Assembly (NCBI GenBank): GCA_005801425.1
Contig: SYDY01000098.1
Coordinates: 1 to 64,000, forward strand
Direction of reading: 5' to 3'
From: Bdellovibrionales bacterium
GTDB taxonomy: Bacteria > Myxococcota > XYA12-FULL-58-9 > SYDY01
Length of the DNA stretch: 64,000 nucleotides
Shown here: one piece after another, positions 6,893-62,362 of the stretch
Numbering within the stretch: position 1 is the stretch's first letter
Layout of the letters: the number at the start of each line of letters is the position of its first letter
Program-made: the position numbers and the translations under genes
The notes under the pieces: generated by a model
The model's input: only the letters and a program-made list of their open reading frames with translations
The model's database searches: none
Told to the model about the DNA's origin: nothing

Positions 6893-6964
6893 GTGTTTAG
6901 AAATCCCCCGCCGACATTCAAAAAAACACAAGCGCATTGAACAAAGCCATGGAAGACTGTTGCT

Positions 6965-6982
6965 GGTGTCTGTACGGACACC
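6965..6982. promoter_or_regulatory. Inverted repeat just upstream of a lipoprotein ribosome-binding site
   Basis: GGTGTC and GACACC (6965-6970, 6977-6982) form a near-perfect 18-bp palindrome, GGTGTCTGTACGGACACC. It ends one base before the GAGAG ribosome-binding site (6984-6988) of the lipoprotein gene that starts at 6996. It could be an operator or a 5' hairpin. No second copy was seen before the paralogous gene at 9456. Confidence 0.4.
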
Positions 6983-6995
6983 GGAGAGTCATACC

Positions 6996-9188
6996 ATGAA
7001 ATACACGCCGATGTTTTTATCCAGAAAATTTATTTGGATCCCTGCTATGGGTTTTGCCCTTGCAGGTTGTACTGGGAGTTCGAGCACTTCAGGTGCTGGA
7101 AGAAATGGTGGCACGGTTGAGGCGTTGAGCCTCCCGCCGGATTTATCGGTGATCCATTTTGATGACGACACACCTGCAGGTGCTTTGGTCTCGCGTGCGA
7201 TTGGAGCAAATCTTCCCGCCAATTCTCCCGAACTGAATTTGGACCACGAAGCGGTAGGTCCATTGCAGACGGTGGATATGATCCTCTGCATGCTTAAGCA
7301 TTTTAAATACGAAGAGCACATGAAAACCGGTGACGAATGCGATGGTGATGCAGGCTATGGCGTAAAAATGGGCTTAAGCCAGTGTCAGTCGTCTGGCGGC
7401 AATTCAGATGCAGGAAGCGATGTGAAAGTGATTACGGTGAAATCGTGTCGTCGCGATGCAGATGCTCCACACACCGTCAAAGTGAGCTTTGATATGGAGG
7501 GTGGTCGTCTTTTTGCTGAAGCAACGATTTACGCCGCACCTGCATCGTCCGACAGTGCTACTTCTGGTTATTTTGGGAAATTTATCTTGGCGTGGAAACA
7601 TTCATCAGGGCAGTCCCAAGGGGCGTTGTGGACGGTCGCTGACACAAATGGTGTGATTGATGCTGAAGGAAATGCCCAAAATGGTTGGCGATTTAGGGAA
7701 GAAATGGGTGACGATTCTTCCAGTGCGGCATTGGTAGTTGATGCTGGCAAGCGTTATGCGAGTGTTAGTTCTCGACGTGGGGATGATTCGGAAACATACA
7801 GCGTTTCTGAATACGGAAATTATTTTAAAATTGGCGATACAGTGATTGAACAATGTTTTGATAAAACGCAATTCACGGAAGAAATTTGGAGTTATGATGT
7901 TTGGAAGAAAGTGGAAAATGAAAATACATATACATGGGAAGAGGTAACGCCACCGAAAGCGTCGGTGCAGTTTCAATCGGCGAGTGGATGCTATGGTAAC
8001 CTTAATCGCTACGGCGTGTATGTGGACCAACGGTGTAGTCTTGACGATGGCGCCCAAGTGAAAGAATCGCTCCCCGGAAATAATGGCCGCACGCTTACCT
8101 ACGTAAAGAAAATTGGAAAACTTGAGCAAAAAACGCCACGTTCGGTTGCACTTTCTGATTTGCATGGGCGTTTGTTTGAGACCTGGTCGAATAATTACAC
8201 TTTGTCAGGCTCAACGCTCACGCTTGCAGTGAATAATGGACAAGGCGATCAACTGAATCTTCAAGTGAAATATATTGCGGATGGGTTTTATGCGGTGAAA
8301 GCAGCGCATCAAACAAACAATGGAAATCCAAGTTGGGTTGATGTTGATGACGTGCCGATCACCGGTCAACTCAATATGTATGATGTGAGCAATAATAGCG
8401 ATGCGAGCTATGATGGCAGTTCTTTAACGCTCACCACGTATGATCGTCGTACGATCAACCCTGGTGAGTTGAGTAATTATGCAATCGAAGGTGTGGTTGA
8501 TTTTGTCGATTTCGATAATTCTTCGAACACATATACGTTTAATGTCAACGATTACATGCTGTTGAATGGTACTGAAGAGATGGTTGGCAATGCATCAGAT
8601 AACAATTATCGTCGATTGAAACTTAATCATGCGACAGGTGACTCAGCAAACCTGATATTTGAATGGCACGACGGATGGGGCAACGATGGGCAATCAAACA
8701 CACGCAAAGAAATGTCATGGGAAAATTTCCAAGGCCTAAAAGAGGGCAGTGCCTATGTGACCGTCGAAGATCCGTTGATGTTTAATTACAGTATTGATGT
8801 GAGTGATTTACGATCAGAATCGGCTTCTGCGTCTGCTGGTGACCGTGTTGATTTTCAATATGTGGGCCCAGGCCAATTGTGGGGCATTCAGGGTTCGCAA
8901 GATAATCAAGGCCGTTGGCACCCCAATTTCAGTTTGAAAGATGGTGTGATTGTTCAAGGCAGCGATAATGCAGAATACGCTGTATATGCAACGCGTGGGT
9001 CGCGTCTCATGACGCCGCAATTAGATAATAACTCTGATGCTCTTGTTGCTTGTACTGCGATGGGCAATGGTTCTGCACCTGCCGCACCTACGCATTTGCC
9101 ATCGATATCGCCCAGTGAATTCACCGATGCACCTGTGAGCGTCGAGGCTCCAACCATTCTTGAAGATTGGACTGTTGTTACGCCGTAA
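6996..9188 (+). CDS. Large surface lipoprotein, paralog of the downstream gene
   Basis: A 730-residue protein from the ATG at 6996, chosen because GAGAG lies at the right distance and the signal peptide then starts cleanly. The signal ends in a lipobox (FALAGC), so it should be lipidated on Cys. Acidic, Asn/Ser/Gly-rich strand-forming sequence follows, with scattered Cys. Conserved blocks shared with the next gene include LDHEAVGP-LQTVDMILCMLKH, FGKFILAWKHSSG-GALWT, EEIWSYDVWKKV, MSWENFQGL and the ending SLKDGVIVQGSDNAEYAVYATRGSRLM. No known domain is recognised. It probably forms a beta-rich outer-membrane or surface protein. The two genes form a tandem duplication. Confidence 0.8.
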   Translation: MKYTPMFLSRKFIWIPAMGFALAGCTGSSSTSGAGRNGGTVEALSLPPDLSVIHFDDDTPAGALVSRAIGANLPANSPELNLDHEAVGPLQTVDMILCMLKHFKYEEHMKTGDECDGDAGYGVKMGLSQCQSSGGNSDAGSDVKVITVKSCRRDADAPHTVKVSFDMEGGRLFAEATIYAAPASSDSATSGYFGKFILAWKHSSGQSQGALWTVADTNGVIDAEGNAQNGWRFREEMGDDSSSAALVVDAGKRYASVSSRRGDDSETYSVSEYGNYFKIGDTVIEQCFDKTQFTEEIWSYDVWKKVENENTYTWEEVTPPKASVQFQSASGCYGNLNRYGVYVDQRCSLDDGAQVKESLPGNNGRTLTYVKKIGKLEQKTPRSVALSDLHGRLFETWSNNYTLSGSTLTLAVNNGQGDQLNLQVKYIADGFYAVKAAHQTNNGNPSWVDVDDVPITGQLNMYDVSNNSDASYDGSSLTLTTYDRRTINPGELSNYAIEGVVDFVDFDNSSNTYTFNVNDYMLLNGTEEMVGNASDNNYRRLKLNHATGDSANLIFEWHDGWGNDGQSNTRKEMSWENFQGLKEGSAYVTVEDPLMFNYSIDVSDLRSESASASAGDRVDFQYVGPGQLWGIQGSQDNQGRWHPNFSLKDGVIVQGSDNAEYAVYATRGSRLMTPQLDNNSDALVACTAMGNGSAPAAPTHLPSISPSEFTDAPVSVEAPTILEDWTVVTP

Positions 9189-9315: not shown

Positions 9316-9455
9316 GTACGTACATATGCACACAAAACGTGTACCCACAGTACCAAAAAATTACATCAAAATAAACAAGCGCAACGCAAAAACTCGTGGA
9401 ACAATTATTCATGTTTCCCGAAATGGGCTTTTGCGTTTTGAAAGCGAGTTGTGTG

Positions 9456-12400
9456 ATGAAATGCAGTGGTTTGTATTTATCGAGAAAGTTTTTATGGGTG
9501 CCTGCTGTAGCCCTTGGGCTTGCGGGCTGCACAGGCGGTTCTAGTTCTACAGGCTTGGATAGTGGCGGTGGCGGCGGTGGTGGCGGTGACGTTGCTGCAC
9601 TTAGCCTACCAAGTGATTTGGCTTTGGTGGATTTTGATAGCGACGAAAATCCAAATGCATTGGTGTCGCGTGCGGTGAATGAATCCGTAAATAAACCTCA
9701 ACTTAATTTTGATCACGATGTGATGCGGCCGATACAGCAGGCTGAGATGATCCTCTGTTTTTTTGATCACCTTAAATACCAAGACAACGACAATTGTGAA
9801 CCTTACGGTGTGCTTATGGACATGAGTCTGTGTGAAAGCGGTGCCTCAGAAAAGACCGAAGAAAACGCTCAGCAAGAGGGCTCACAGTCCATGACTGTGA
9901 CGGTGTTGTCGTGCCAGGAGACGCCAGAATCACCTCTTCGCGTTCAGTTGAGCTTTGAGGGCGATGGTGGTGATCGTTTGTTTGTGGAAGCTGTGATTTA
10001 CGCAGGTCCTGTTCCTGATGGTGGAGGCAGTGCAAAAGGTGATTTTGGGAAATTTATTTTATCGTGGCGAGAGGGCAATGATAACAGTGGTGCGTTGTGG
10101 ACTTTGGGTGAAACAGAAGATGGCATACTGACTTCAGAGGGGTCGGCTCAGAAGGGATGGAGCTTCTATGAATCATCGGCACGTGGTGATGGTGGTTCAG
10201 AGAGGTCCCGTGCGAAGATGGTGGTAGGGACCACCGGCCGTCGTGCGAGCGTGGGGCTGGAAAGAGGAGGCAGTGAGACATCGTATACGGTGTTTACTGC
10301 TTCTGATAGCGATAAATTTGTTATCAGGCCAGTGGGCGGATTAGCAGAATGCTATGACAAACAAGAATATAACGAGGAGATCTGGTCGTATGATATTTCT
10401 AAAAAAGTGGGCAATAACCAGGTTCCTGTTGAGTTGACCACTGCCTTACAATTTAAAGGCGATGCGATTTGTAAGAGACCCTTGTCAGAAAAGATATCGT
10501 CTTGCCCGGTGGGCGCAAGCACAACGGTTGAAGGTACTCAAACCTTCTGCACCAAAACAGAAACAGTTCGTGGTAATTTGGACCGATGGGGTGTGCGTCT
10601 TCACGATTATTATTGTTCCATGGAAAATGGGACGAAGGTTCATGAAGAGAATTTTTCCCGAGGACCAGGTTCGTCTCAAGGTCGCGAGCTTACGTATGTG
10701 AAAACAACGGGACGCATGGAATATCGTGAGTCGCGTAAGATCAAATTGAGTGATTTGGGCGATCGTACATTTCTTCTTAGAGATATGGGAAGCAACTATA
10801 CAGTAACCAAGAACGAAGGTGCTGATACTGTCACATTGGCGAAGCGTGATTTTAATTTCGGCGGTGGTGGCAGTACCATTACGCCAGCTCCAGGCCGTGG
10901 GCTTCCTTCAGAGGGTGGTACCAGCGGTGGCACGCCTCCTCCAGGGTGTGAGGGATGCAATTTTTCGACACATCATTGTGAAGTCATAAATGGTCAAGGT
11001 ACATGCAAGGAAGGCGCTGGTGGCCAACCTCCTCCTTCAGGTGGTGGCAGTAACCAACCTCCTCCAGAGTGCGAAAATGTATCATGTTCTTCGACTCAAC
11101 ATTGTGAACCGGTCAATGGCGCAGGTGTATGCAAGGATAATCCCGTATGCAGCAATCCTGCATGTACACCGGATCAACATTGTGAAGGACCCGTTGGGAG
11201 TACACAATGTGTTTCCAACCAGCCTCCTTCGGACACCGGATCCGGTTGCAGTCCCGCATGTGAGTCTGGAATGCATTGCGATTACAATACGCGTGTATGC
11301 GTCGCAGGCCAACCTCCTGCAGGTGGTACCCAACCTACCATGTGTTCTCCTGATGTCGCTGAAAGGCAAAATTGTGGATCGGGGAAAATGTGCGTGATTA
11401 AGGACAACGCGCCAACATGTGTTGAGGGTGGCCAACCACCTGCGGGTGGTGGTCAACCTCCTCCTGGTGGTAATCAACCCCCTGCAGGTGGTGGTCAACC
11501 TCCTCCTGGTGACAATGGCGGTGGCATGGTGCCATCGATGAAACAATTTGTAATCGAAGTAAAATACATGCCTGCTGTGGGCAACAGTAAAGCAGGTTTC
11601 TACGCTTTGCGTGTTGCGGAAGAAAATTTACAACCACCTGCCATGGGGACAACGGCAGGCAAGGGAATGTCTGAAAGACCACAGTTTAAAAAGGTTGATC
11701 CTCCTTTTCTTTTGATGTCTCAAATTGACGAAACATCAAACTCAGGGCCTGGTTCACCTCCTATGTTTCCCTTTAATAAAATGCTTTGGATGCAATCCAA
11801 TGGAAGTGACAGTCCGGTCACTTATATGCAAGGCGACGACAGTGTGCGTGAACAATTCTCAGGAACCATCGCACCCAATGCTGCGATACTTAAGGATCTT
11901 GATGCTGATGAAGACGGTGTTGTTGAATTTGTGGATGATGGCATGAGGTTTGGTCCGGATGCGGCTACAGTGGCGACCTACCATTTTGTTCTGGCTGAGT
12001 ACATGCTGTATTCCACGAAAACGGATGATGATGGAGAGATAGTCAAAGACATAGCGATGAAATATTCGGAAACTTCTCTCTCATCGACAGATTTCCGCGG
12101 CTTTGATCGTGGCTTACGTCTTAAAGATGCAACCGAAGAACAACAGGAAATGTTCTTTAATTGGTTCGATGGAGGTTCTATTATGATGGATCCTGCCTCG
12201 ATGAATGGAGGTGATGTGACCACCCAAGCGACGGAAATGCTATGGGAGAATTTCCAGGGGCTTACAGAGAGCGATGGCTCTTATGCCACTTTGGGAGAGG
12301 CAATTCGTTTCACGTATCGTCATACAAAAGAAAATGATCGTGTGGGCGATGACAATGGTAAGCAGTATGGCCAATCCTTCATGTTGCAGTACATGGGTCG

Positions 12401-12755
12401 TGGTCAGTTGTTTGGTCTCCCAGGTGAGTATGACGACCAAGGTCGTTACCACCCGTTCTTCAGTTTGAAAGACGATGTGGTGCTCACCGCCGACGATGGT
12501 ACGGAATATCTTGTAAAGGCCATCCAGGGTGCACGCCGCATGAAAAAGTTAACGGGTGCGGATGCATGTTCTTCGATCACAGCGACGACAGGACCTGGGG
12601 CACCCGATGGGTTGCCTTATGATGCCGCATCCAATGAGACAGTGACCCCAAGCAATTACACGGAGTCTTATGCTATTTCGGATGATGAGATTGATATTCT
12701 CGTGAACTGGGTGCTTTATCCGAGCACAGGGGTGCCGGCTGTGCTTACCGAATAA
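9456..12755 (+). CDS. Giant surface lipoprotein with Cys-rich and Pro/Gly repeat insert
   Basis: Starting at ATG 9456, which gives a clean lipoprotein signal (FLWVPAVALGLAGC), the product is 1099 residues. After the lipid Cys come a Gly8 tract and a region similar to the whole first half of the upstream paralog. At about nt 10855-11535 an insert of roughly 225 residues interrupts this similarity. It has five short Cys-rich modules of EGF-like spacing (for example CSSTQHCEPVNGAGVCK) joined by QPP linkers, then a (QPP[AP]GG[GN])n tract. The second half again matches the paralog (MLWENFQGL, SLKDDVVLTADDGTEYLVKAIQGARRM). DLDADEDGVVEF at about nt 11898-11933 resembles an EF-hand calcium loop. Surface adhesion or a spacer role is inferred. 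A terminator follows. Confidence 0.8.
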   Translation: MKCSGLYLSRKFLWVPAVALGLAGCTGGSSSTGLDSGGGGGGGGDVAALSLPSDLALVDFDSDENPNALVSRAVNESVNKPQLNFDHDVMRPIQQAEMILCFFDHLKYQDNDNCEPYGVLMDMSLCESGASEKTEENAQQEGSQSMTVTVLSCQETPESPLRVQLSFEGDGGDRLFVEAVIYAGPVPDGGGSAKGDFGKFILSWREGNDNSGALWTLGETEDGILTSEGSAQKGWSFYESSARGDGGSERSRAKMVVGTTGRRASVGLERGGSETSYTVFTASDSDKFVIRPVGGLAECYDKQEYNEEIWSYDISKKVGNNQVPVELTTALQFKGDAICKRPLSEKISSCPVGASTTVEGTQTFCTKTETVRGNLDRWGVRLHDYYCSMENGTKVHEENFSRGPGSSQGRELTYVKTTGRMEYRESRKIKLSDLGDRTFLLRDMGSNYTVTKNEGADTVTLAKRDFNFGGGGSTITPAPGRGLPSEGGTSGGTPPPGCEGCNFSTHHCEVINGQGTCKEGAGGQPPPSGGGSNQPPPECENVSCSSTQHCEPVNGAGVCKDNPVCSNPACTPDQHCEGPVGSTQCVSNQPPSDTGSGCSPACESGMHCDYNTRVCVAGQPPAGGTQPTMCSPDVAERQNCGSGKMCVIKDNAPTCVEGGQPPAGGGQPPPGGNQPPAGGGQPPPGDNGGGMVPSMKQFVIEVKYMPAVGNSKAGFYALRVAEENLQPPAMGTTAGKGMSERPQFKKVDPPFLLMSQIDETSNSGPGSPPMFPFNKMLWMQSNGSDSPVTYMQGDDSVREQFSGTIAPNAAILKDLDADEDGVVEFVDDGMRFGPDAATVATYHFVLAEYMLYSTKTDDDGEIVKDIAMKYSETSLSSTDFRGFDRGLRLKDATEEQQEMFFNWFDGGSIMMDPASMNGGDVTTQATEMLWENFQGLTESDGSYATLGEAIRFTYRHTKENDRVGDDNGKQYGQSFMLQYMGRGQLFGLPGEYDDQGRYHPFFSLKDDVVLTADDGTEYLVKAIQGARRMKKLTGADACSSITATTGPGAPDGLPYDAASNETVTPSNYTESYAISDDEIDILVNWVLYPSTGVPAVLTE
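11430..11513 (+). repeat. Tandem 21-bp coding repeat (QPPxGGx)
   Basis: Four 21-bp units, also readable as two 42-bp units, encode repeats of the type QPP[A/P]GG[G/N]. Looser copies lie further upstream in the same insert. The flexible Pro/Gly linker separates the Cys-rich modules from the second paralog-like half of the lipoprotein. Confidence 0.8.
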
Positions 12756-28626: not shown

Positions 28627-28672
28627 TAATACCCCAAACGTATGTAACTCTATGTGCGTGAATGCTTAATTG

Positions 28673-49836: not shown

Positions 49837-51552
49837 ATGAAATTGTTTACAGATGCATTTTTATGCATTGTTTTTTGTTCTGCGTTGGGTGCATGCCATC
49901 CAGGCAATCTCGCATCGGAAGCAATTTCTGACGATGGATCCCACGACTCCGATACCCTTGTTGATGGCAATCTTTACGACCCAAACACAGCAGACGACAG
50001 AGCGAACAACAGCATTGCGTATCTCGGTGGTGCAGGGGGCTGTACGGCCACGTTGATCGCACCCCAGGTGTTGCTCACGGCTGGCCATTGCGCACCCGAT
50101 CCAGACGGTGTTGGTCAAGAATATCTGGTGGGGTTTCCTGCACCGTTGAGCGCTGCAAAGGACAGTCTCTATCGCGCAACCCATACGCTGGGAAAATATC
50201 CTGTTTTTCTCACAGTCGCCCATGAGCGCGTGGCGCATCCCGAATGGAAGGGCTGTGTTGGGGAGTTTAAATATGTCGATGTGGGTACACAGTTTGCTAC
50301 ACAGTGTGCCGATGGCACTCAGAGTGCCCGTGGTAAGCTGTATCTCGAAGATCTCTGTGATAGCATGCGCAGCGGAACAAGTGGCAATACGCGCCTTGCG
50401 GGTCGTGCAGCGTGCGAAACAAGCGCCAATGGACGTTTGACCGATGACGGTATCACGTGCGCGTTATTGGGTTTTTCCATCATGCTGCAACCAGTCAACC
50501 GCGATGCGTACCGTGGAATAAACGACAAAGCGACATTCGAGGCGACCTACGCCCATGATATGCTTGCGCTTCGCAATGCGATTATTCCGAATCGTGATGA
50601 TTTGGTACATGCTGAGTCGGTGACGTGTTCTATGGGTGATGGATCTATTGCACGTGTGGGTTACGATATTGCACTTATTAAACTCGATGCCCCGATGCCT
50701 TCCGATGTGAACCCAGAGCGCGTTTTGAGCCAATGCAGTGCCGAACGTGTTGTTGCCAATACGCCTGTTCTTGTGTTTGGTTTTGGTGCAACGGTCACCG
50801 ATATTCTCTGGCGCTTAAAGTTTCCATCCGAGCTTAATCCTATTGAAGATGAGAAACCTTTTGGATTGTATACGGGACTTGGTTTGGTGGATTCGGTGTC
50901 GGAACATCTTCTTGCGATCCAAGGTGGACGTTTTTACAACATGCCAGGTCAGTGTCCGGGTGATTCTGGAAGTCCAGTGATGATGGCTGCATCGGGAGGC
51001 AAGCGCCGCGCAATCGCAGGGGTGACGTCAACGTCGCGTGAATTGGATGGATTCTGTCTTTTAGGTGCCGATTACACACGCGTGCAGACGCACAGTGGTT
51101 GGATCAAGAACACCGTCGCAAACTTTCGTGATGCAGCGCTGAAAGAGGATCCAGCAAATGCCGCTGCAATTCAACGTGCATTCGCTTTGGATACAGAAGC
51201 ATGCTGCGGTGATGGGTTTGTTGATTCAGGTGAACGTTGCGATGGCAATTGTCCAACATCTTGTGATGATCATGATATCAAAACAAAAGATGCATTGGTG
51301 GATGTTGGAACGTGTCAAGCACGTTGTGTGTACATGACCATCGAATCGGTTCGATCTGAATCGGATGGATCTGAGTCGGTTGGATCTGGATCGGTCCCCT
51401 CCGGAACAGTCATTTCTGAATCGCCCACCTCGGATGGAGGTGGCGGATGCAATACGGTCGGCAGCAATTCTTTGGGTAGTGTGATTTTTATGATTACATT
51501 GTCATCTCTTGTATTGAATGGTCGTCGAGGAAAGATAAAGCACTGTCCATAG
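49837..51552 (+). CDS. Trypsin-like serine protease lipoprotein with C-terminal anchor (first of four)
   Basis: A 571-residue protein. The signal peptide ends in a lipobox (CSALGAC). The S1 triad is His84 (LLTAGHC), Asp277 (YDIALIKLD) and Ser377 (GDSGSP). The gap between His and Asp is about 190 residues, far longer than the usual 45 or so, with a conserved Cys-containing insert (YLEDLCDSMRSG, CALLGFSIMLQPVNRDAY). After the protease domain come two short disulfide motifs (CCGDGFVDSGERC, CPTSC), a Ser-rich 15-bp tandem repeat and a tail of Gly-Cys, hydrophobic helix and Arg (GCNTVGSNSLG...GRRGK) similar to MYXO-CTERM signals. It probably acts at the cell surface. Closest paralog is the next gene. 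Confidence 0.88.
   Translation: MKLFTDAFLCIVFCSALGACHPGNLASEAISDDGSHDSDTLVDGNLYDPNTADDRANNSIAYLGGAGGCTATLIAPQVLLTAGHCAPDPDGVGQEYLVGFPAPLSAAKDSLYRATHTLGKYPVFLTVAHERVAHPEWKGCVGEFKYVDVGTQFATQCADGTQSARGKLYLEDLCDSMRSGTSGNTRLAGRAACETSANGRLTDDGITCALLGFSIMLQPVNRDAYRGINDKATFEATYAHDMLALRNAIIPNRDDLVHAESVTCSMGDGSIARVGYDIALIKLDAPMPSDVNPERVLSQCSAERVVANTPVLVFGFGATVTDILWRLKFPSELNPIEDEKPFGLYTGLGLVDSVSEHLLAIQGGRFYNMPGQCPGDSGSPVMMAASGGKRRAIAGVTSTSRELDGFCLLGADYTRVQTHSGWIKNTVANFRDAALKEDPANAAAIQRAFALDTEACCGDGFVDSGERCDGNCPTSCDDHDIKTKDALVDVGTCQARCVYMTIESVRSESDGSESVGSGSVPSGTVISESPTSDGGGGCNTVGSNSLGSVIFMITLSSLVLNGRRGKIKHCP
51346..51395 (+). repeat. 15-bp tandem repeat in a protease gene
   Basis: Three 15-bp units and a partial fourth, pattern TCGGnTnGATCTGnn, encode a Ser-rich stretch (SVRSE, SDGSE, SVGSG) between the disulfide motifs and the C-terminal anchor. 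The following paralog has a similar Ser/Asp-rich spacer of different sequence. Confidence 0.75.
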
Positions 51553-51574
51553 AAGTAGAGTACACTCATCTATC

Positions 51575-53254
51575 GTGTGTGCACTCAAAAACGCAGCCTG
51601 TGTTGTGTTGCTCTTTGCGCTGGCCGCATGTCAATCCGTGCATGTTGGATCGCAGTCTCCCTCAAATACGAAAACCACAGATCCCCTTGTCGATGGGGAC
51701 CTTTTTGATCCCAATGCTGCAACCCAGTCCAATACCAGTATTGCATACATCGAAGGCGCAGGGGGCTGTACTGCCACATTAATTGCACCGCAGGTATTGC
51801 TGACAGCAGGGCATTGCGCGTTGGGATCAGGGTCTTCGGGGAAAACTTTTTTTGTTGCGTTTCCGGCACCTGTGACCGCGAAGTCAGGAGGTTTCTACAA
51901 GGCAACCCATACGATTGAAGACTATCCCGTGTTTGTGACAGCCGCTCACGATGTTGTGGCACATCCACAATGGATGGGATGTCTTTCTGATTTTAAAGAG
52001 ACCAATGTGGGTGATGCATTTAATACGCAGTGTGCCGATGGGTTTCAGGAAGCACGTGGCAAGCCGTATCTCGAAGATCTTTGCGACAGCATGCGAAGTG
52101 GAATAACGTCCAATGACCGTTTGGCTGGGCGAGATGCCTGTGAATCCTCTCAGGGACATTTGACCTATGACGGTATGGTATGCGCGCTTCTCGATTTTTC
52201 GATCATGTTACAACCGGTGAATCGGGATGCATACCGTGAGAATGCGGTTGAAGCCACATTTAATGCGACCTATGCCAGCGACATGCTTGCGCTTCGAGAT
52301 GCCATCATTCCAGCGCGCGAAGATGTATTGCATTCGGAGTCTGTGGTGTGTTCAGTGGACGGCAGTTCTACGTCGCGCGTGGGATTTGATATTGCGCTGA
52401 TTAAGCTTGATAAACCGATGCCACCCGAAGTGCGACCGGAACGTGTTTTGAATCAATGCAGCACGCAGCAAGTTCTTGCAAATACGCCGGTGTTTGTGGC
52501 GGGTTTCGGTGCAACAGTCACCGATATCCTTTGGCGCGCAGAATTTCAGTCAGAACTCAATCCTGTTGAACAAGAAAAACCCTTTGGATTGTATACGGGG
52601 ACGGGCCTGGTGGACGCAGTCTCAGAGCATCTTCTGGCGATTCAAGGCGGACGCTTTTACAACATGCCAGGTCAATGCCCAGGTGATTCTGGAGGCCCGG
52701 TGATGCTGGATGCTTCGGAAGGCAATCCTCGGGTTGTGATAGGGGTGGCGTCAACGTCCCGTGAATTGTTTGGCTTTTGTTTGTTGGGTGCAGAGTACAC
52801 CCGTGTGCAGCCCCACAGTGATTGGATCAAGAACACCGTGGCAAGCTTTCGTGACGCAGAAATCAAGGCGCACCCAGAGAATGCTTCAGCGATCGCAAGT
52901 GCATTTGCCATGGAAATCGACGCATGTTGCGGCGATGGGATGATTAATACAGGTGAGCTTTGCGATGACGATTGTCCCGTAGGCTGTGACGACGCTGATG
53001 ACAGCACGCAGGATACACTTTGGGATGGCGGGACCTGTCAGGCGCGTTGTGTCCATGCCGCAGTCGAAGTGTCGCCTCGATCAGGCGGATCAGACGAATC
53101 GGATCAATCAGAAAAGATCGGAAAAGGCTGCAATACGACAGGCAGCAATTCTTTGGGCTGTGTATGTGTGTTGCCTGCATTGTGTTGGATTGTCCGGTAT
53201 AGGCGTCGAATAGGCATAATGCCCATTATTTTGGGGATAAATTGGATACAATAA
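51575..53254 (+). CDS. Trypsin-like serine protease lipoprotein with C-terminal anchor (second of four)
   Basis: A 559-residue protein starting at GTG. The signal ends in a lipobox (LFALAAC). Triad: His80, Asp272 (FDIALIKLD) and Ser372 (GDSGGP). It shares with the previous gene the long His-Asp insert (YLEDLCDSMRSG, LLDFSIMLQPVNRDAY) and the disulfide motifs (CCGDGMINTGELC, CPVGC), and it ends with the tail GCNTTGSNSLG, a Cys-rich helix and RYRRR. A short extension after the Arg is unusual for such a signal. The two genes are clear tandem duplicates. Its stop is 3 bases before the giant gene, so the two are probably co-transcribed. Confidence 0.88.
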   Translation: MCALKNAACVVLLFALAACQSVHVGSQSPSNTKTTDPLVDGDLFDPNAATQSNTSIAYIEGAGGCTATLIAPQVLLTAGHCALGSGSSGKTFFVAFPAPVTAKSGGFYKATHTIEDYPVFVTAAHDVVAHPQWMGCLSDFKETNVGDAFNTQCADGFQEARGKPYLEDLCDSMRSGITSNDRLAGRDACESSQGHLTYDGMVCALLDFSIMLQPVNRDAYRENAVEATFNATYASDMLALRDAIIPAREDVLHSESVVCSVDGSSTSRVGFDIALIKLDKPMPPEVRPERVLNQCSTQQVLANTPVFVAGFGATVTDILWRAEFQSELNPVEQEKPFGLYTGTGLVDAVSEHLLAIQGGRFYNMPGQCPGDSGGPVMLDASEGNPRVVIGVASTSRELFGFCLLGAEYTRVQPHSDWIKNTVASFRDAEIKAHPENASAIASAFAMEIDACCGDGMINTGELCDDDCPVGCDDADDSTQDTLWDGGTCQARCVHAAVEVSPRSGGSDESDQSEKIGKGCNTTGSNSLGCVCVLPALCWIVRYRRRIGIMPIILGINWIQ

Positions 53255-53257
53255 ATT

Positions 53258-56200
53258 ATGACCTCATCGAAGGTGCATGACAATGTTTGGGGAGGATCAT
53301 GGACTTACTCCCCGACAGCTTCAGACGCTCCCAGTGCGCCTTATTTTCCACCTTCTCCCGATGAGCCGTTTGCTGATGCCATAGAGCATTCGCGCACTTT
53401 GGCAGATCCATTAAACCAAGAACATGCGAAATTGTCTCACAAACGACCTGCACCGCGTTCGATGACTGAGCAAATAATTGATCCCAGTGCACGTTTTTTA
53501 TTGGCACCTCAAAAAGGTCTTTCCCGATCACAGATTGTAATGTGGCTTGAGGCGACAGCAAGAAAGCCCATTTGTTTGATCGAAAATACAGATCTGGCAG
53601 CCTCCCAGAGTATCCGAAAACAAATTGAAGAAGTTCGCGCGCAAGGCGGCACCTTGGTTTTGATGGTCGGACCTGGTGGCGTAGAAAATCCGGCCGCATT
53701 TCATACGTTAATTGACAATTACGGGGCGACAGGAAAACCCGGTGAACGCGCTTCAGATATGCGTGTCGTGGCGGTATTACCAGAAGGTGTATTGCTTGAG
53801 GACACCGCATTTGTGAGCAGATTTCGTGCTCGTATTGTAACACATGACAGTGCTCATTTTCCTGCTCTGCCGTGGACGAAGCCAAGTGCAGCGCAACTTA
53901 AGCAAGCCGATTTACCGCGCGTGGTTGCATGGGAAACCATGGGCTTGCAAGAACGTTTAGAAAAATCTTTTCGAGAATCGAAAGGTACGTTGCTTGTTAG
54001 CGTGCCTGAACCCTCGCAATACACGATGGATCAATTGATTCTACTTGCGCGTGCATATCCCAACGTAAAACTTTATGTGCATGAAGGTTGGGATGGCTAT
54101 GTGAATCGACGTCGGTATGCTTCTCAAGATCCAAGCGTATTGTTTGTGGATGAAAGCAATATTTCGTCCGCATTTGCACGAGGGACAGGTAAGCTGGGCC
54201 AATCATGTTTGGGACCACTTGCCGATCTGCAAAGACCTGCACCCCGGGTACGGGTGATTGGCCCTTTATCGGATGCCTCGTGGCAGATGTTGGCAAGTGC
54301 ACCCAATGCCTGTTGGCCTCCTGATGCTGTGGAGGGGGTGCCAGTGCCTGCATGGGCAATGGAAGTTTCTCGTGTGCAAGAAGGCGAAAGAAAGCCGCTA
54401 ACGCCGGAATTTCGTCCGACAAAGTCGTGTGTCATTGTGAGTTCAGAGCCAGCCCTCGCTGCATGTCATTTGCTTGATGCATTGCCGATAGCACAATGCG
54501 TGGGCATTGCGTCGGACACCAGTGTGGGGGCGCTGCTGCAATCTGCGGGGAGAAATGTCGATGGACAACCTGTTCTTTTCGACACGCCACTTTTGGAAGC
54601 CTTGCGAAGGGGTGGGGATATTATTTTACGCATGGATCATGCGCGGGAACTTGCCCAAGGTTTGGGCTCATTGTTGCTTGATCCTCCATGCGGTCTTATT
54701 TGGGGTCGTATTGAAACATTTTCTAAGGCGCGTGTGATTGTTGTATCCAATGATCCCTTGTTATTGTCTGCGTTGCCTGCATGTGATGTATATACAGACC
54801 CTACGATTTATACACCGAAGGCGATTGCCACTGAAGTTTTACGGATGCATGGCATTTCTGAAAAGGATCCGGATTACAAACAGCTTATCGTCTTATCTGA
54901 ACAGATCCACAAAGCATTGCAAAGTGATCCCGAAACATTGGCCAGAGGTCGTCGCTTTGATGCTGCGACCATGGAACGCCTATTGGCCCATCGCGATGTG
55001 AATGATCCTTCATGGATGAAAAATGCAATTGTAAGCACCCTGAGTGGTGAATTTGGTGATCGAAGCGAAGCATATGCGGAACTTCTTTATCATGTGAGCG
55101 ATCCCAATCAAACTCAGCAGATAGACCCAACCGATATTTTGCGTGTGATCGATGATCTACGTTCGCCGTTGGAACTTATGCGTTACACGTATCGGATTGC
55201 GAATGCTGTATCGCGCAAAGAATACGATGTCGCGATGGCGAGATTTCCTGGCGAACCCAACAAGGCGTTGGGATGCCTTATCTTTAAATTTCTCCGCGAA
55301 GCATCTCGTCCTGGAAGCGATCCATTTCACGTGGCCATATGGATTGCGGATGGCGTTGGTTTATCTACAGAAGAACGCAAGACGACAAGTTTACCTACTT
55401 TTGAGAAGCGTGATTGTTATCAGGACCAATGCAATGCTGTTGTTCGTGCATTGGATAAAAATGTTGTTTGTGCGCTCATTGGTCCTCCGTGTTCAGGGAA
55501 AAGTCGAGCACTTGGTTTATTGAAACAGACTTATCCTCATCATACGCAGTTGAATGTGGGGAGTTATTCCCATGCCACTGCGTTGGCCCGTGATGTGCAA
55601 AAAGCATATGATCAAGGCACTACGCTTGTTGTTCTTGATGAAGCCGATTTGCTTGACTTGCGTGGTGTTCTTCCCATGCCACCGGCGGGATGCAAGCTTG
55701 TGATTGCAGGGAATGGCTTGCACGATGATCGGGTTCCTCTTCCTGATGGGATCCCTTTGGTACGGTTTCCAGAAGTACTGTATAGCGATGATTTAAAAGA
55801 ACGATTTATAGAGCCTGCGCTCGCGCATGTTCGTGCATTGGGACCGCAATGGGTTCATGAATCATATCTGAAAGATAATAAATTATCTGGTAGTCAATCG
55901 GTTATTATGTCCATGACACATACGCTGCTTGCGGCGCATCGTATCGCATGTTCACTTGATCGTACTGGACGTGTCACACCTCGATTGTTGCAAGAAGTTT
56001 TTCGACGATTGGATGCTGTTGTGGACCAGAGGTGGCGACGAGACGCATTTCATTATTTATTGGTGGAGATCATCTTTCAGGTGTACTTCGATGGTTTTAG
56101 CCGTTCTATTCGTGAATCAATAAAACCTCTTTTGGGTGGTGCGTTTTATTCCCTGATTAGGCCCATCGCGCAAGCCAATGTTGCCGATGGGCACCACGCT

Positions 56201-59110
56201 TATCAAAAGTTTTCAGGTCGTAGTGATGAGGCAGAACGTATTGTAAACCATCTTTGGGTTATTCAGCAGGCACAGCAACGACCCTTAAACCCTGCAATTT
56301 ATGGAACACCTTCATCACTCTCCATTGAAGGTCCGCCAGGTATAGGCAAGGACGTGATGTCTCGTTGGGCATGCGAATGTTTGTCTCTTGATTGGGCGCA
56401 AGTTGAAGGTGGCGGAAATATGCCTTTAGACGATGCAAAAGATAAAATGCGTCGTCATGATGTGGTGCTTGCTTCAGAAATGAATACGGTCGATCCTGCG
56501 ATGCTTCATGGTGCGCTTTATAGTGTGGAACGTCGCGATGAAAGATTGCCTGTATTGGTTACCTTGGATAATCCAGCAGGGCTTCATGGGGGTCGCAGTG
56601 ATCGCAATGCCGCTGCTGCAAGTCGTACGGTGCGTGTGCAATTGTCTTCAGAGAATGATTGCGAATCTCTCGTGGTTGCTGTTGGATGGAGTCGTAGAGA
56701 TGAAGCTTCTCATTCTTGCACTTGGTCTAAAACAACCAATTCAAAGTTGAGCGATGCAGGCTCCATGCTGCAAATGACATATCGCCAAATGCTGCAAACG
56801 GTGGCCGATGACGATGGTGCATCAGAGATCCAACATTTGCAGGCTTATACCGATGCGGTAATTCAAACACATAGAAGCACCAACGTACGTCCGTCTCAAA
56901 ATAAAAGTGATGCCGATACGATACAGCATTTAGAAATGTTGGCGGGGATCCCTGTACGTTTTGTGGAACAGTCGTTATCTTCTCATATCGAAAATGGTGT
57001 TTTGTTTATTTCATTGGCTGAAGTCAACAGTGAGTCTCTCTGTATGGCGACGCGTTTGGGGCTTTTGGACCTTTATAACGATGAGTCATTGCTTATTTTT
57101 CGTTTTTGGTTAGAAGGCATGTGTTCGGACGAGGCAATGATGCCTAATGAAAAAATATTTCATTTGTTGGATTTTTTGGCCCAAGATAATCAAAAAGATC
57201 CTGAACATGATGCTTATGATATGTTTGTATATCGTGCTTCAATGTGGACAAAAACGGATATTTTGTCACGTTCTACTTCGTCATGCAAAGCGTTTGGCTA
57301 TTATCTTCGAGAGGTGTTTGCTTGCGCTTATGAAATGATTAAAAATCCAACATCTGTGTTTGATCCGTACGTGTTGATGTCTCAGCGTGAAATTGATGCG
57401 CTTCAAGCGCGTGTCAATCCATTGGCACAAATTGCGTTGCCACCTAAACCATCGCCCAATACATCAGCCTCTGCATTGCCTCGGGTGATAATTGTCCCGC
57501 AACAGCAGGATACGTCACAGACACTTCCAGCACCATCGTTGGATATCATGGCACCCAAGAAGCGCCCGTTGGATGTTGGACTGCGAAGCGCAACAGAAAC
57601 GATGTATTGTCCGGGATTTGTTCAAACGTTGGATGGTCATTGTCATCCTTATCCTGTGGCTGTGCCTTATGATGATGATCGGTGTGAAGAGATAGACGCG
57701 CATACCCTGAGTCCTCTACCCGGTGAAACGATGCTTTCGTTACGTGTTCCATACGGTGTGTGTGTTAGCGATTGTATTTGGGTGTTGCCTGACCAATCGC
57801 ATGTGGATGCGCCTTTGAGCTCTTCTGTCGTGCCAACGGTACATTCAAGTTGCTATGGTGTTGATGTACCAGATGACCTTCCGCCTGGTGCATATCTCTC
57901 GTACCGATTACTGAAAGGTCAGTCTGCTGCCCCACCTTATTATTATCCTGGCACAGCGGTGCATAATGGAGAAATTGTGTGGAGCGAATTATCACAAGGT
58001 CGAAGTGACCTCGTGAGTCAATTTATTCGTGATATGCAGGGGCGAATATGGGAAACCCACGATGCGCTCATCAAACACGTTTGTGCATGGATCCATGACA
58101 ATTTTCAATATCGATGGTCCCATCAAGGCGGCGCAACAACAGGCATAGGAATGCTTGAAACAGGTTCGGGCAATTGTGCAGCAGCGCAAGAGCTCGCGAT
58201 ATGTTTGCTTTATTATGCAGGGCGACCGGATGTCTTAAAGGTCAATGGGCATTTGTTGTCAGGCGATAAATTAACATCGGACGGGCATGCATGGCTTGAA
58301 TACATGGGTCAGATTTATGACCCAACGCCATCGATCTTGCATGCCACTGAGATCGTGCCAGCGCGTGAGGATCCGCGCGCGTTGCGTGAGCATCAGCCTT
58401 TGCCTCACAAAGAGGATGCGCCCACGTTGCATGTTGACGTGCGTTCTGTCACGACTCAATCTTTGGCGTCTGTTCAAGTAAGAGAGAAAGACGATCCAAA
58501 ACGTAGACAGCGCTGGATGGCAAGTGAATGCTTGTTCAAGCAAACGGTGCAGGCGCGTTCGGTGATGGACCCCTACGGTGATGAACTCAAAATAAGTATT
58601 GATGGGAGCATGATCCCTTGCACGCGTGCAGGCAAAGTGGCGCCTAAACCACATGTTTTGTTTATTGGAACCCAAGATGCTGTTCGCATGAAAGAAGACC
58701 CATGCGGGTTGTGGCTTCCCGCATTGGCTGTATTCTTTGAAGAAGGGCATGGACGCATGGTCGTGGGTCGTACGCTTGCGGATGGTACGCGGGATGTGGT
58801 GTGCGTCTCGACGTTGGAGGAGTTATGGGGGGCTTTGCGGGATATGCCGTCTGCGCAACAGGCTGCCACGCTGTTGACCTCGGAAGAGGAGATGACGATA
58901 GCAATGCGTGCCGGTGTTGTACTCCACAATACCCATGCACTGTCGCTGGACGCATTGGAGCGCGAAGGTCTTCGTACAAGTGCCTCACTTTTCAAACCCA
59001 TCACGTCGCAGGAACCCAAGGGACGACGTACCCGAAGTCAGTCTGTGGGAGGCGATACGCCTCGTACGCAACCGGTGCCAGGAATACCAAGAATGGCGAG
59101 TGAGACGTGA
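53258..59110 (+). CDS. Giant 1950-residue tandem AAA and transglutaminase-like protein
   Basis: No signal peptide or membrane helix; the Pro-rich start is probably disordered. At least two P-loop modules are visible. The first has Walker A GPPCSGKS (742-749) and Walker B LVVLDEAD (790-797). The second has Walker A GPPGIGKD (1025-1032), a Walker-B-like VVLASEMN and a sensor-1-like LVTLDNPA. The N-terminal 520 residues contain further AAA-like pieces without a Walker A: VLFVDES (294-300), GGDIILRMD (452-460) and arginine-rich RFRARI, so several degenerate modules may precede. After a Pro-rich linker (about 1390-1450), a transglutaminase-like domain shows Cys1640 (GNCAAA), His1677 (GHAW) and Asp1688 (YDPTPS). 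The tail is basic and Pro-rich. It resembles no family I can name. Confidence 0.85.
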   Translation: MTSSKVHDNVWGGSWTYSPTASDAPSAPYFPPSPDEPFADAIEHSRTLADPLNQEHAKLSHKRPAPRSMTEQIIDPSARFLLAPQKGLSRSQIVMWLEATARKPICLIENTDLAASQSIRKQIEEVRAQGGTLVLMVGPGGVENPAAFHTLIDNYGATGKPGERASDMRVVAVLPEGVLLEDTAFVSRFRARIVTHDSAHFPALPWTKPSAAQLKQADLPRVVAWETMGLQERLEKSFRESKGTLLVSVPEPSQYTMDQLILLARAYPNVKLYVHEGWDGYVNRRRYASQDPSVLFVDESNISSAFARGTGKLGQSCLGPLADLQRPAPRVRVIGPLSDASWQMLASAPNACWPPDAVEGVPVPAWAMEVSRVQEGERKPLTPEFRPTKSCVIVSSEPALAACHLLDALPIAQCVGIASDTSVGALLQSAGRNVDGQPVLFDTPLLEALRRGGDIILRMDHARELAQGLGSLLLDPPCGLIWGRIETFSKARVIVVSNDPLLLSALPACDVYTDPTIYTPKAIATEVLRMHGISEKDPDYKQLIVLSEQIHKALQSDPETLARGRRFDAATMERLLAHRDVNDPSWMKNAIVSTLSGEFGDRSEAYAELLYHVSDPNQTQQIDPTDILRVIDDLRSPLELMRYTYRIANAVSRKEYDVAMARFPGEPNKALGCLIFKFLREASRPGSDPFHVAIWIADGVGLSTEERKTTSLPTFEKRDCYQDQCNAVVRALDKNVVCALIGPPCSGKSRALGLLKQTYPHHTQLNVGSYSHATALARDVQKAYDQGTTLVVLDEADLLDLRGVLPMPPAGCKLVIAGNGLHDDRVPLPDGIPLVRFPEVLYSDDLKERFIEPALAHVRALGPQWVHESYLKDNKLSGSQSVIMSMTHTLLAAHRIACSLDRTGRVTPRLLQEVFRRLDAVVDQRWRRDAFHYLLVEIIFQVYFDGFSRSIRESIKPLLGGAFYSLIRPIAQANVADGHHAYQKFSGRSDEAERIVNHLWVIQQAQQRPLNPAIYGTPSSLSIEGPPGIGKDVMSRWACECLSLDWAQVEGGGNMPLDDAKDKMRRHDVVLASEMNTVDPAMLHGALYSVERRDERLPVLVTLDNPAGLHGGRSDRNAAAASRTVRVQLSSENDCESLVVAVGWSRRDEASHSCTWSKTTNSKLSDAGSMLQMTYRQMLQTVADDDGASEIQHLQAYTDAVIQTHRSTNVRPSQNKSDADTIQHLEMLAGIPVRFVEQSLSSHIENGVLFISLAEVNSESLCMATRLGLLDLYNDESLLIFRFWLEGMCSDEAMMPNEKIFHLLDFLAQDNQKDPEHDAYDMFVYRASMWTKTDILSRSTSSCKAFGYYLREVFACAYEMIKNPTSVFDPYVLMSQREIDALQARVNPLAQIALPPKPSPNTSASALPRVIIVPQQQDTSQTLPAPSLDIMAPKKRPLDVGLRSATETMYCPGFVQTLDGHCHPYPVAVPYDDDRCEEIDAHTLSPLPGETMLSLRVPYGVCVSDCIWVLPDQSHVDAPLSSSVVPTVHSSCYGVDVPDDLPPGAYLSYRLLKGQSAAPPYYYPGTAVHNGEIVWSELSQGRSDLVSQFIRDMQGRIWETHDALIKHVCAWIHDNFQYRWSHQGGATTGIGMLETGSGNCAAAQELAICLLYYAGRPDVLKVNGHLLSGDKLTSDGHAWLEYMGQIYDPTPSILHATEIVPAREDPRALREHQPLPHKEDAPTLHVDVRSVTTQSLASVQVREKDDPKRRQRWMASECLFKQTVQARSVMDPYGDELKISIDGSMIPCTRAGKVAPKPHVLFIGTQDAVRMKEDPCGLWLPALAVFFEEGHGRMVVGRTLADGTRDVVCVSTLEELWGALRDMPSAQQAATLLTSEEEMTIAMRAGVVLHNTHALSLDALEREGLRTSASLFKPITSQEPKGRRTRSQSVGGDTPRTQPVPGIPRMASET

Positions 59111-59183: not shown

Positions 59184-60758
59184 GTGTGTCGTTTCATCTT
59201 TTTCGTATGCGTTTTCGGTGTTTTTGGGGGATGCGGCCAGAATAGATCCGTTCCATCCTTGAACGACAAACAGCCAATTGATTTATCGGACGCGATAATC
59301 GATGCGCCTGTAGAATTAGAACCTGAAACGCACCAATCTTTTGTGCAAATTGTACGTGAAAAAATAGAGAATGATCCCAATGCCACCACATGCAGTGGCA
59401 CACTGATTGCGCCGAGGATCGTTCTCACTGCGGCTCATTGCTTACGCAGTGTGAGCGACCAAGGGCCGTGGCGTTTGACGGTGCGCATCCCCACGTCCTC
59501 TACCAAGTTCCAAAATATTTTGGTCACCGATCCCAACAGTGTTGTGGTCCATGGATCTTGGGTCAATCGTACCGCGAAACTGTCGATTTATGATGGCGAG
59601 GCGGATGGATCCATACGACTTGCGTGTGATGGAGAAGACAAGCCCGCGCGCATTGTTGCGCTATGTGAACAGTTACGAAGTGAATGCGACAGGCAAACAC
59701 CATCATGCACGATGCATAGCAACAGTGATGATAATCAAGCATGCGATGACAGTATTCGTGGCAACGATGAATTGTTGTGTGCCATGACATTGTTTGCAAA
59801 GAGTCTTGCTCCAGAACAAGTTCTTGAGGCATGTCCTGGTGCTTCAGCGGCATGCATTGCCCAAGATGCAAATGCTCACCTTAAAGCACGCAACAGCCTT
59901 TTGGGATTGGCCATTCGATTGGACAGTTGGAGCAATACCGATGCGGCGATAGGGCATGACATTGGTCTTCTGCTTTTGCCTGAAGCTGTTTCGATCGCAC
60001 CCATGGTTTTGCCCAATATTTGTTGGGATGACGTTCTCGGACATGGAACCCAGGTCGAAGCGTATGGGTATGGAAGCACGGTGATGGATGTCCTGCATCC
60101 TCTTGACGGATTGAATCATACTGAAGAACAATTTGGACAGCGCAAAATGCAAGGCGTGATCGCTGATAAATCGGATGCTCTCTTGTGGGTCCAGGCAGGG
60201 CGTTTTTACGGAACACCTGCATTGTGCGCAGGGGATTCGGGTGCATCCATTCTTGCGTATCACGCAACAACACCGCTGGTGATCGGTATTGCGTCGTCGA
60301 GTGCTGAGCATTTTGGATTGTGCATGAACGGCACAGTGGCGACACGTGTGTCATCGTATCTCTCTTGGATTTCTGCAGAGATGAACGCGTGGCATCTTGC
60401 ACCTCCTGAGATGGTGTCATGTTGCGGGAATGGTGTGATCGAATCACCAGAGACCTGCGACGATGGCAATGTGGACAATTTGGACTCATGCACTAACACA
60501 TGTGAAATCGCACGGTGCGGTGATAACACTATACAGAGGGATGAATTGTGTGATGGCAACTGTCCGACGTCATGCGATGATGGTGATGTGTGTACAATGG
60601 ATCGCGTGCTTGGTTCAGGGACATGCCAAGTGCGATGTGCAAACACGTATGAAGAGTCGTTGTGCCCAGAACGTATTCCAGGATGTACGATGTTTGATGC
60701 AGGTGTGATCCTCTGGCCGCTGGTATTGTGGACGCTTCGTCGTAGGAGAATGGCATGA
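59184..60758 (+). CDS. Trypsin-like serine protease lipoprotein (third of four)
   Basis: A 524-residue protein starting at GTG after AAGGGT. Signal with lipobox-like VFGGC. Triad: His85 (LTAAHC), Asp259 (GHDIGLLLL) and Ser352 (GDSGAS, where GDSGGP is usual). It has the long His-Asp insert (about 174 residues) with Cys-rich CEQLRSECDRQTPSC and CEAC-like spacing. The C-terminal region holds a full myxobacterial disulfide repeat (CGNGVIESPETCDDGNVDNL, then CTNTC) and ends with GC, a hydrophobic helix and RRRRMA. More diverged from the first two proteases than those are from each other. It overlaps the next gene by 4 bases. Confidence 0.87.
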   Translation: MCRFIFFVCVFGVFGGCGQNRSVPSLNDKQPIDLSDAIIDAPVELEPETHQSFVQIVREKIENDPNATTCSGTLIAPRIVLTAAHCLRSVSDQGPWRLTVRIPTSSTKFQNILVTDPNSVVVHGSWVNRTAKLSIYDGEADGSIRLACDGEDKPARIVALCEQLRSECDRQTPSCTMHSNSDDNQACDDSIRGNDELLCAMTLFAKSLAPEQVLEACPGASAACIAQDANAHLKARNSLLGLAIRLDSWSNTDAAIGHDIGLLLLPEAVSIAPMVLPNICWDDVLGHGTQVEAYGYGSTVMDVLHPLDGLNHTEEQFGQRKMQGVIADKSDALLWVQAGRFYGTPALCAGDSGASILAYHATTPLVIGIASSSAEHFGLCMNGTVATRVSSYLSWISAEMNAWHLAPPEMVSCCGNGVIESPETCDDGNVDNLDSCTNTCEIARCGDNTIQRDELCDGNCPTSCDDGDVCTMDRVLGSGTCQVRCANTYEESLCPERIPGCTMFDAGVILWPLVLWTLRRRRMA

Positions 60759-62362
60759 GATGGCTTTTCTTGGGTATCTTGGCACTTGCAGCATGCGGTG
60801 ACGATGTTCAAACGGAGGCCGTGCTTGATGCGCCCAACACATCGGATCCCATTGTGGATGCCAACCGTAACATTCCACAGGTGCTTACTAATACACAGCG
60901 CACCGAAGTGGTCAAAGTCCTCATTCCCGTCAGTGCGACATCGGCCAGTTTATGCACAGGAACATTGATCGCACCACGCATTGTTTTAACTGCTGGCCAC
61001 TGCACCAGATCCTCGAAGAATGTGTTTCATTCCACGGATATTCAGGTGTTCGTACGAGGTGATTCTGTGCCTTATGCAGTGATGGGTGTGATCGAACCCG
61101 ACCGATGGATGTCAACGGATAACTATGGGGTAGGGTACAATCAATGGCTTGGTGGAACGACATCAGAGGATGAACAAATACTTGGAAAGTATACCGATGC
61201 ATGTACAGGGACTGCGAAAACCGTTTGCGACCAGATCAAGGCAACGTGTGATAAAAACAACAACGGTATTGCCGATGGAAATACTTACCCTAATCCGGTG
61301 GGTGGAAAAACCTTTGACGAAGCCGTGTGCATTTCTGGAGAATTTGCAAAAAAAGTAGATGCAGCAGTGACTGCAAATGCATCGTTAAGCGTTCTTGCCG
61401 ATCTTTATATCATGCGTGATAAATTGGCAGGCACCTATGGTGTATCTATTCCATTTTTTTGGGCTGAAGATCGTGTATCCGGTGTTACTGATAATACAAC
61501 GGGTTACGATATATCTTTGTTGGTATTGGCTGAGGCTGTTGCTTCAAATTTGGCAGCACCTGTAGCCATCGAGAGCCTGTGTGAATCGGCAGCGATGCAA
61601 ACCACCGCTGAAACAGCGCCACGTCCGATTATAGAGGGCTGCATCATGGGCTACGGCGGTACAAGCCCCGATCCACACAATCTTTTAAATCTGGGTTACG
61701 CCAATGCAACAGGGACAGCCAAATACGGCAGTGTAGATATCGCTGCTTTTGGTGGCACACAGCTTTGGGTGCGTGGCGGTCGTTCGCTTGGGCTGGCATC
61801 CAACTGCGAAGGCGATTCGGGTGGGCCTGTTTTTCCTGGTGCGTGCAGTACGTCGCGCGCGAGTACTGATCGTGTTGCCGGTCTTGTATCGTTTGCGGCC
61901 GATTATGCGGGATATTGCACGCTTGGTTCTGTGCATACGCGTGTGGGAAGTTTCGCCGGGTGGATCAAGGCTTGGGCTGCCCAATTGGCGTTGCTTAAAA
62001 ACGACAATACGGGTTTTGTGATCAAAAGTACCCAGTGTTGTGGCGATGGCTTTCCTGATGCAGGAGAAGCCTGTGATGGAACCAGCGGATGCAATGCCCA
62101 ATGCGGAAGTAATGTACCCGTAGAAACACCGGACGAAGGGGCAACGCATGTGACGGATGCTGGCGGTTCTAATCGTACCACGATCTCTTTCGGCGATGAC
62201 GAGCTGGGCAGCGCCGAAGGGTGCAGTGGATGCCATCAAGGTGCTGGCGGATCCATGTCTTCGATACTGTTACTCTTGGGATTGGGTGTTATGATTGTTT
62301 CGCGTAAACGTTTAGCGCGCGTTCGCAATCATGCGCTCAAGCCGCGCCATCCCCGCCTCTAA
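60755..62362 (+). CDS. Trypsin-like serine protease lipoprotein (fourth of four)
   Basis: A 535-residue protein with lipobox LALAAC. Triad: His82 (LTAGHC), Asp252 (YDISLLVLA) and Ser355 (GDSGGP). It keeps the long His-Asp insert with conserved Cys (CTGTAKTVCDQIKATC). The C-terminus has CCGDGFPDAGEAC, then a Gly/Ser tail with GCSGCHQGAGGSM, a helix and a basic end that extends about 15 residues beyond the Arg cluster. The last 51 bases overlap the end of the convergent aminotransferase gene, which explains the odd extension. It starts 4 bases inside the third protease gene. Confidence 0.87.
   Translation: MRWLFLGILALAACGDDVQTEAVLDAPNTSDPIVDANRNIPQVLTNTQRTEVVKVLIPVSATSASLCTGTLIAPRIVLTAGHCTRSSKNVFHSTDIQVFVRGDSVPYAVMGVIEPDRWMSTDNYGVGYNQWLGGTTSEDEQILGKYTDACTGTAKTVCDQIKATCDKNNNGIADGNTYPNPVGGKTFDEAVCISGEFAKKVDAAVTANASLSVLADLYIMRDKLAGTYGVSIPFFWAEDRVSGVTDNTTGYDISLLVLAEAVASNLAAPVAIESLCESAAMQTTAETAPRPIIEGCIMGYGGTSPDPHNLLNLGYANATGTAKYGSVDIAAFGGTQLWVRGGRSLGLASNCEGDSGGPVFPGACSTSRASTDRVAGLVSFAADYAGYCTLGSVHTRVGSFAGWIKAWAAQLALLKNDNTGFVIKSTQCCGDGFPDAGEACDGTSGCNAQCGSNVPVETPDEGATHVTDAGGSNRTTISFGDDELGSAEGCSGCHQGAGGSMSSILLLLGLGVMIVSRKRLARVRNHALKPRHPRL

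Follow-up and report, generated by a model that had tools for sequence, protein, structure and literature searches.

To our knowledge, the known AAA+ proteases carry Ser, Ser-Lys, Thr or zinc peptidases. Genes for a MoxR-type ATPase, a DUF58 protein and a transglutaminase form a recurrent neighbourhood, the nearest published precedent for the locus described here (PMC6803598; PMC12067865), and transglutaminase-like peptidases occur occasionally in NTPase conflict systems (PMC7159879; PMC8195603). A word search of open-licence papers found no description of a fused AAA+/transglutaminase-fold protein.

Such a fusion is encoded in the window (the whole stretch of DNA analyzed, 64,000 nucleotides) by a single open reading frame of 1950 codons at positions 53258–59110 of the forward strand, on which all features of the protein given below lie. 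Its ATG follows the stop codon of a protease gene by 3 bases, as stated in the preliminary description. The same genome has a full-length paralog (1929 aa) on contig C77 (G000:C77:29940-35726, equal to L003:7944-13733). The two proteins are 42–43% identical from end to end in the two-copy alignment, with similar length and the same domain order. Identity at codon positions 1, 2 and 3 was 54, 62 and 36%, respectively, and fell to 29% at the fourfold third positions of identical residues. Because synonymous sites are near-random while protein positions are held, the duplication that gave the two copies is, judged by these substitutions, old and under purifying selection. The independent full-length copy also excludes an assembly or frame artefact. 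At 48% overall, the GC content of the giant gene is inside the range seen for genes of the window; at third positions it is 0.41, on the low edge of that range.

The N-terminal tail (residues 1–75; 53258–53482) is Pro/Ser-rich, poorly conserved and without a hydrophobic signal, and low-complexity tails are present in both copies, as revealed by the alignment and by hydropathy. No signal peptide or transmembrane segment was seen in the protein by hydropathy, in agreement with the earlier statement that a signal peptide is lacking.

Twelve proteins of the same genome supplied 15 modules for an AAA+ reference, which was compared by hhalign with slices of the two-copy alignment; 40 column shuffles per slice and 101 slices from other proteins served as controls. 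The slice spanning residues 700–900 scored 56.6 (probability 95%, E 2e-8, z 19.6 vs. the shuffles). The best non-P-loop control, an aminotransferase, reached 26.2. The highest score of any control, 42.0, came from the gene at 28654; its P-loop match and its position beside an ABC-transport gene suggest an ABC ATPase. With this reference, slices from the helical and beta regions, the transglutaminase domain and the C-terminus remained at background. The AAA+ core in this slice, module A (residues 735–870; 55460–55867), is canonical. It has a Walker A motif, GPPCSGKS (742–749; 55481–55504), invariant in the paralog, and a Walker B motif, LVVLDEAD (790–797; 55625–55648), of which D794 and E795 in the DEAD segment (794–797) are invariant. 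Pfam matches to AAA_30 and AAA_22 around residues 722–785 of the window copy were sub-threshold. Two canonical P-loops arose by chance in 0.26% of shuffles of the protein's composition. Residues N819, N1105, R836, R1123 and R1176 are invariant between the copies and are roughly placed to act as sensor 1 or arginine finger, roles that they may have.

Module B (residues 1017–1130; 56306–56647) is MoxR/midasin-like, as judged by hhalign and by alignment with midasin. The slice 985–1180 scored 53.5 with the AAA+ reference (probability 95%, E 7e-8, z 19.1); by profile this is an AAA+ core, yet GKD and SE.N replace GK[ST] and DE. The second P-loop, GPPGIGKD (1025–1032; 56330–56353; GPPGVGKD in the paralog), has Asp at the Thr/Ser position, and the Walker B motif, VLASEMNT (1070–1077; 56465–56488; SELN in the paralog), has Ser at the usual Asp, with Glu and Asn kept. 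Two Walker A motifs with Walker B partners had been proposed: the pair of 742–749 with DEAD 794–797 and the P-loop at 1025–1032 stand, but the latter is not a GK[ST] motif and its partner reads SEMN rather than DE. A midasin reference was made from modules taken from PDB alignments (a generic consensus served for their retrieval only). Module B aligned collinearly with these modules over 108 columns, from the P-loop to the arginine-finger region, with a score of 32.9 when compared with 24.7 for the best non-P-loop control.

Both usual Mg-ligand positions of module B are thus changed together, and in both copies (GPPG[IV]GKD and SE[ML]N). NtrC-type AAA+ proteins have GKE in their P-loop and are active, so that the Asp of GKD alone does not abolish activity; examples of NtrC-type proteins in this genome also show an acidic residue after GK. 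In module B the two exchanges would be paired, with metal binding retained. Module B, in which the customary Thr/Ser and Asp ligands of the metal are missing, may however be unable to hydrolyse ATP, which counts against a fully active tandem machine.

In the preliminary description about five AAA modules were envisaged, some of them in the first 520 residues, in a layout recalling dynein, midasin or RNF213. The N-terminal slices scored 20–25 with the AAA+ reference, inside the control noise (26.2 for the aminotransferase). The conserved region 76–374 (53483–54379) holds RFRARI and VLFVDES and has no relatives by profile; the segments 70–215 and 205–385 were at background with both the AAA+ reference and the midasin profiles. 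Neither motif could be upheld as an AAA piece: VLFVDES (294–300) scores no better than the DE motif of the aminotransferase, and RFRARI is in the 70–215 segment. Results differed for residues 375–530 (54380–54847), probably a P-loop-less AAA+ module of midasin type, with GGDIILRMD (452–460) at the Walker B position and SNDP at the sensor-1 position. With a glocal midasin profile this segment ranked in the top 0.6% of 328 controls for the window copy and in the top 1.5% for the paralog, its score was reached by only 1 of 400 shuffles for each copy, and in both copies no other part of the protein scored higher. The local midasin profile comparison was not significant. Ten segments were tested in the glocal scan, and because of this the support for a P-loop-less midasin-type module is moderate and not conclusive; the earlier reading of GGDIILRMD as AAA-like is retained with that qualification.

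With two solid modules, one moderately supported and two unsupported, a total of five is not shown, and the five-module dynein-like picture should be dropped for now. A related reading, in which six AAA modules, several of them P-loop-less, form a midasin/dynein-like single-chain ring and the C-terminal enzyme is secondary, is quite unlikely. The resemblance of 375–530 to a midasin-type module and a module spacing of ∼280–360 aa are compatible with it, but six modules were not found in the chain, the two segments upstream of residue 385 are at background, and profile self-comparison detected no internal repeats. Pfam detected neither a vWA/MIDAS nor a RING domain in either copy; the midasin lid family PF17867 matched neither the protein nor anything in the control genomes, which makes its lack of a match uninformative. 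A PDB search with the whole protein and with the module profiles gave nothing significant, and the designed TIM barrels matched by residues 375–560 were judged spurious. AlphaFold with a two-row alignment gave a pLDDT of 35 for both halves of the window protein, too low to speak for or against any fold.

The transglutaminase-fold domain (residues 1600–1692; 58055–58333) was recognized by Transglut_core (Pfam) at 26 bits in the paralog and 14.8 bits in the window copy, which is below the cut-off of 23. The predicted catalytic residues, Cys1640 (58175–58177), His1677 (58286–58288) and Asp1688 (58319–58321), follow the Cys-His-Asp order of Transglut_core and are invariant, as are the motifs TGSGNC, GH.WLEY and YDPTP. 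These motifs are in register with L005, a transglutaminase-fold protein of the same genome scoring 82 bits, and, except for the His column, the triad aligns with L006, another such protein. The triad residues proposed in the preliminary description were confirmed, and the tandem AAA plus C-terminal transglutaminase-like arrangement is supported by the profile comparisons and by the independent full-length paralog. A further soluble transglutaminase-fold protein of this genome (L022:2331-5126 on G000:C34; 931 aa, Transglut_core 36.7 bits) is apparently helical. Beyond this domain, residues 1740–1900 (58475–58957) form a C-terminal domain that is without relatives in the profile search and is among the best conserved stretches; residues 1751–1850 are 62–66% identical between the two copies.

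The transglutaminase fold is also found in non-catalytic and in non-protease proteins, which counts against the protein-processing machine favoured below. A Cys-His-Asp triad fits amidase, protease, deamidase and cross-linking chemistry alike. The protein could be a transglutaminase-type cross-linker or deamidase whose AAA part serves for assembly or localisation only. The triad is compatible with such an activity, but nothing in our data tells these chemistries apart, and we regard this reading as very unlikely.

The neighbours of the window copy match trypsins, an M18 peptidase and an aminotransferase (Pfam), and the giant gene interrupts an array in which four related genes for trypsin-like proteases stand in tandem. 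These copies (49837–53254 and 59184–62362) have diverged to identities of 24–62%; some of them show CCGDG..D.GE.CD repeats and what appear to be membrane anchors at the C-terminus. The gene had been placed among secreted proteases; this is true of the window but is not kept at the paralog, whose flanking genes read as nagZ- and hutH-like from their sequence. Two further neighbours of the paralog had no Pfam match above cut-off. Since the paralog lacks this array, the proteases are not a conserved partner and a protease operon was rejected as the functional unit. No partner gene is common to both copies.

Other genes were noted in the window and on the contig of the paralog. In the window, 6960–9188 and 9396–12755 code for related large proteins (28–36% identical), apparent lipoproteins with no Pfam match, and the latter has a Pro/Gly/Cys-rich insert. 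Upstream of the paralog lie two orphan genes (L003:2290-3387 and L003:3512-4285), one with a Pro/Ser-rich N-terminus similar in style to the tails of the giants. A MoxR gene is also present on that contig (C77:84477-84869).

A gene for the T6SS sheath (VipB, E 2e-102; G000:C77:96784-97677; L020 and L021) lies on the contig of the paralog, which brings in the possibility of an effector sent into another cell by a type VI system, with the processing enzyme flanked by a Pro/Ser-rich disordered N-tail and a basic C-tail. The low-complexity tails of both copies and the lineage restriction described below fit this reading. The T6SS genes are, however, ∼60 kb away, no known delivery domain was found, and ATPases of 1950 aa are not what such a system would be expected to carry. 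With regard to other export routes, no T3SS/flagellar export gene (FHIPEP) or VirB4-type T4SS ATPase was found. We consider such an effector improbable.

No homologue of the giant protein was found in 195 genomes of its own phylum, including 7 others of the order, and a profile search of the phylum genomes with the C-terminal or N-terminal domain alone detected no relatives. The weak matches G176 and G007 (the two best) and G124 proved to be unrelated proteins on inspection. Scans of GTDB and IMG/VR with short peptide patterns, by which distant relatives would be missed, found none, and no homologue was found in plasmids and phages. NCBIfam, PADLOC and PHROGs gave nothing usable, apart from one weak PADLOC match. 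As far as could be checked, this is a lineage-restricted giant AAA+/transglutaminase-fold fusion that is new as an architecture.

A sporadic distribution and two diverged copies would also fit conflict genes, and transglutaminase-like peptidases do occur, if rarely, in MoxR/STAND conflict systems of multicellular bacteria (PMC7159879; PMC8195603). As in those systems, the AAA+ part could sense an invader or stress and nucleotide exchange could free the transglutaminase-fold peptidase as effector, in an ATP-gated switch. Neither copy is in an obvious defence cluster, however, and no PADLOC model matched apart from the weak match mentioned above. By Pfam, neither the protein nor the flanking genes that were scanned showed an effector-associated domain or a vWA partner, and the pair of a vWA partner and a third component, typical of MoxR-vWA sets, was not found among the neighbours of either copy. 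A switch of this type is rather unlikely.

These comparisons show that two AAA+ modules and a complete predicted Cys-His-Asp triad are preserved between anciently diverged copies. We tentatively favour, at somewhat less than an even chance, a cytosolic machine that joins AAA+ modules to a transglutaminase-fold Cys enzyme and that remodels and then processes a partner protein. In this machine (i) the N-terminal 700 residues, with the probable P-loop-less AAA module and other domains, would select the substrate; (ii) module A would be the main ATPase, and module B would bind nucleotide with its altered metal site, as a regulatory or secondary ring; (iii) ATP-driven movement would unfold or remodel the partner; and (iv) the C-terminal enzyme would then cut, deamidate or cross-link it at Gln/Asn-type or peptide bonds. 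One chain would thereby take on a task that AAA+ proteases perform with other peptidases and that MoxR-DUF58-transglutaminase sets perhaps perform with separate proteins. Unfolding followed by cleavage or cross-linking was put forward as a possible model in the preliminary description and is our preferred reading too.

The more specific proposal of an undescribed single-chain class is possible but doubtful. In it, tandem AAA+ modules, one with an Asp/Ser metal site, would feed a transglutaminase-fold Cys peptidase or transferase, giving ATP-dependent protein processing with a fold unused by known AAA+ proteases. If true, the Cys enzyme would provide a different chemistry for AAA+ proteases. 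The two copies are a natural pair for testing, and the paired metal-ligand change in module B poses a sharp biochemical question on AAA+ sites.

When compared with known systems, the protein shares with Lon and FtsH an AAA+ motor and a peptidase in one polypeptide, but those proteases have other peptidase folds (Ser-Lys or zinc) and one AAA module each. Midasin (Rea1/Mdn1) likewise strings AAA+ modules together in a single chain; they belong to the same broad clade, some are degenerate, and module B and residues 375–530 align with them. Midasin is, however, ∼4700–4900 aa long with a MIDAS domain, whereas the giant protein has 1950 aa, two solid modules, no MIDAS and an added enzyme domain. The sigma-54 activators (NtrC type) share with module B the acidic residue after GK (GESGTGKE), but keep Asp-Glu in Walker B where module B has Ser-Glu. 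The NTPase-peptidase conflict systems (MoxR-vWA-VMAP and iSTAND) also join an NTPase chaperone or switch to peptidases, occasionally transglutaminase-like ones. They come as three-part gene sets that include vWA and EAD components, which were not found at the giant genes. The MoxR (MRP)-DUF58-transglutaminase sets, such as the bifidobacterial PFNA cluster, likewise combine a MoxR-clade AAA+ ATPase with a transglutaminase-fold protein. In contrast to these separate genes with DUF58, the giant protein is a single soluble polypeptide that has two or three AAA modules and in which no DUF58/vWA was found, and the PFNA transglutaminase, unlike it, is a polytopic membrane protein. That MoxR ATPases occur together with transglutaminase-like proteins has long been noted without being explained, and such a fusion would put this association to the test.
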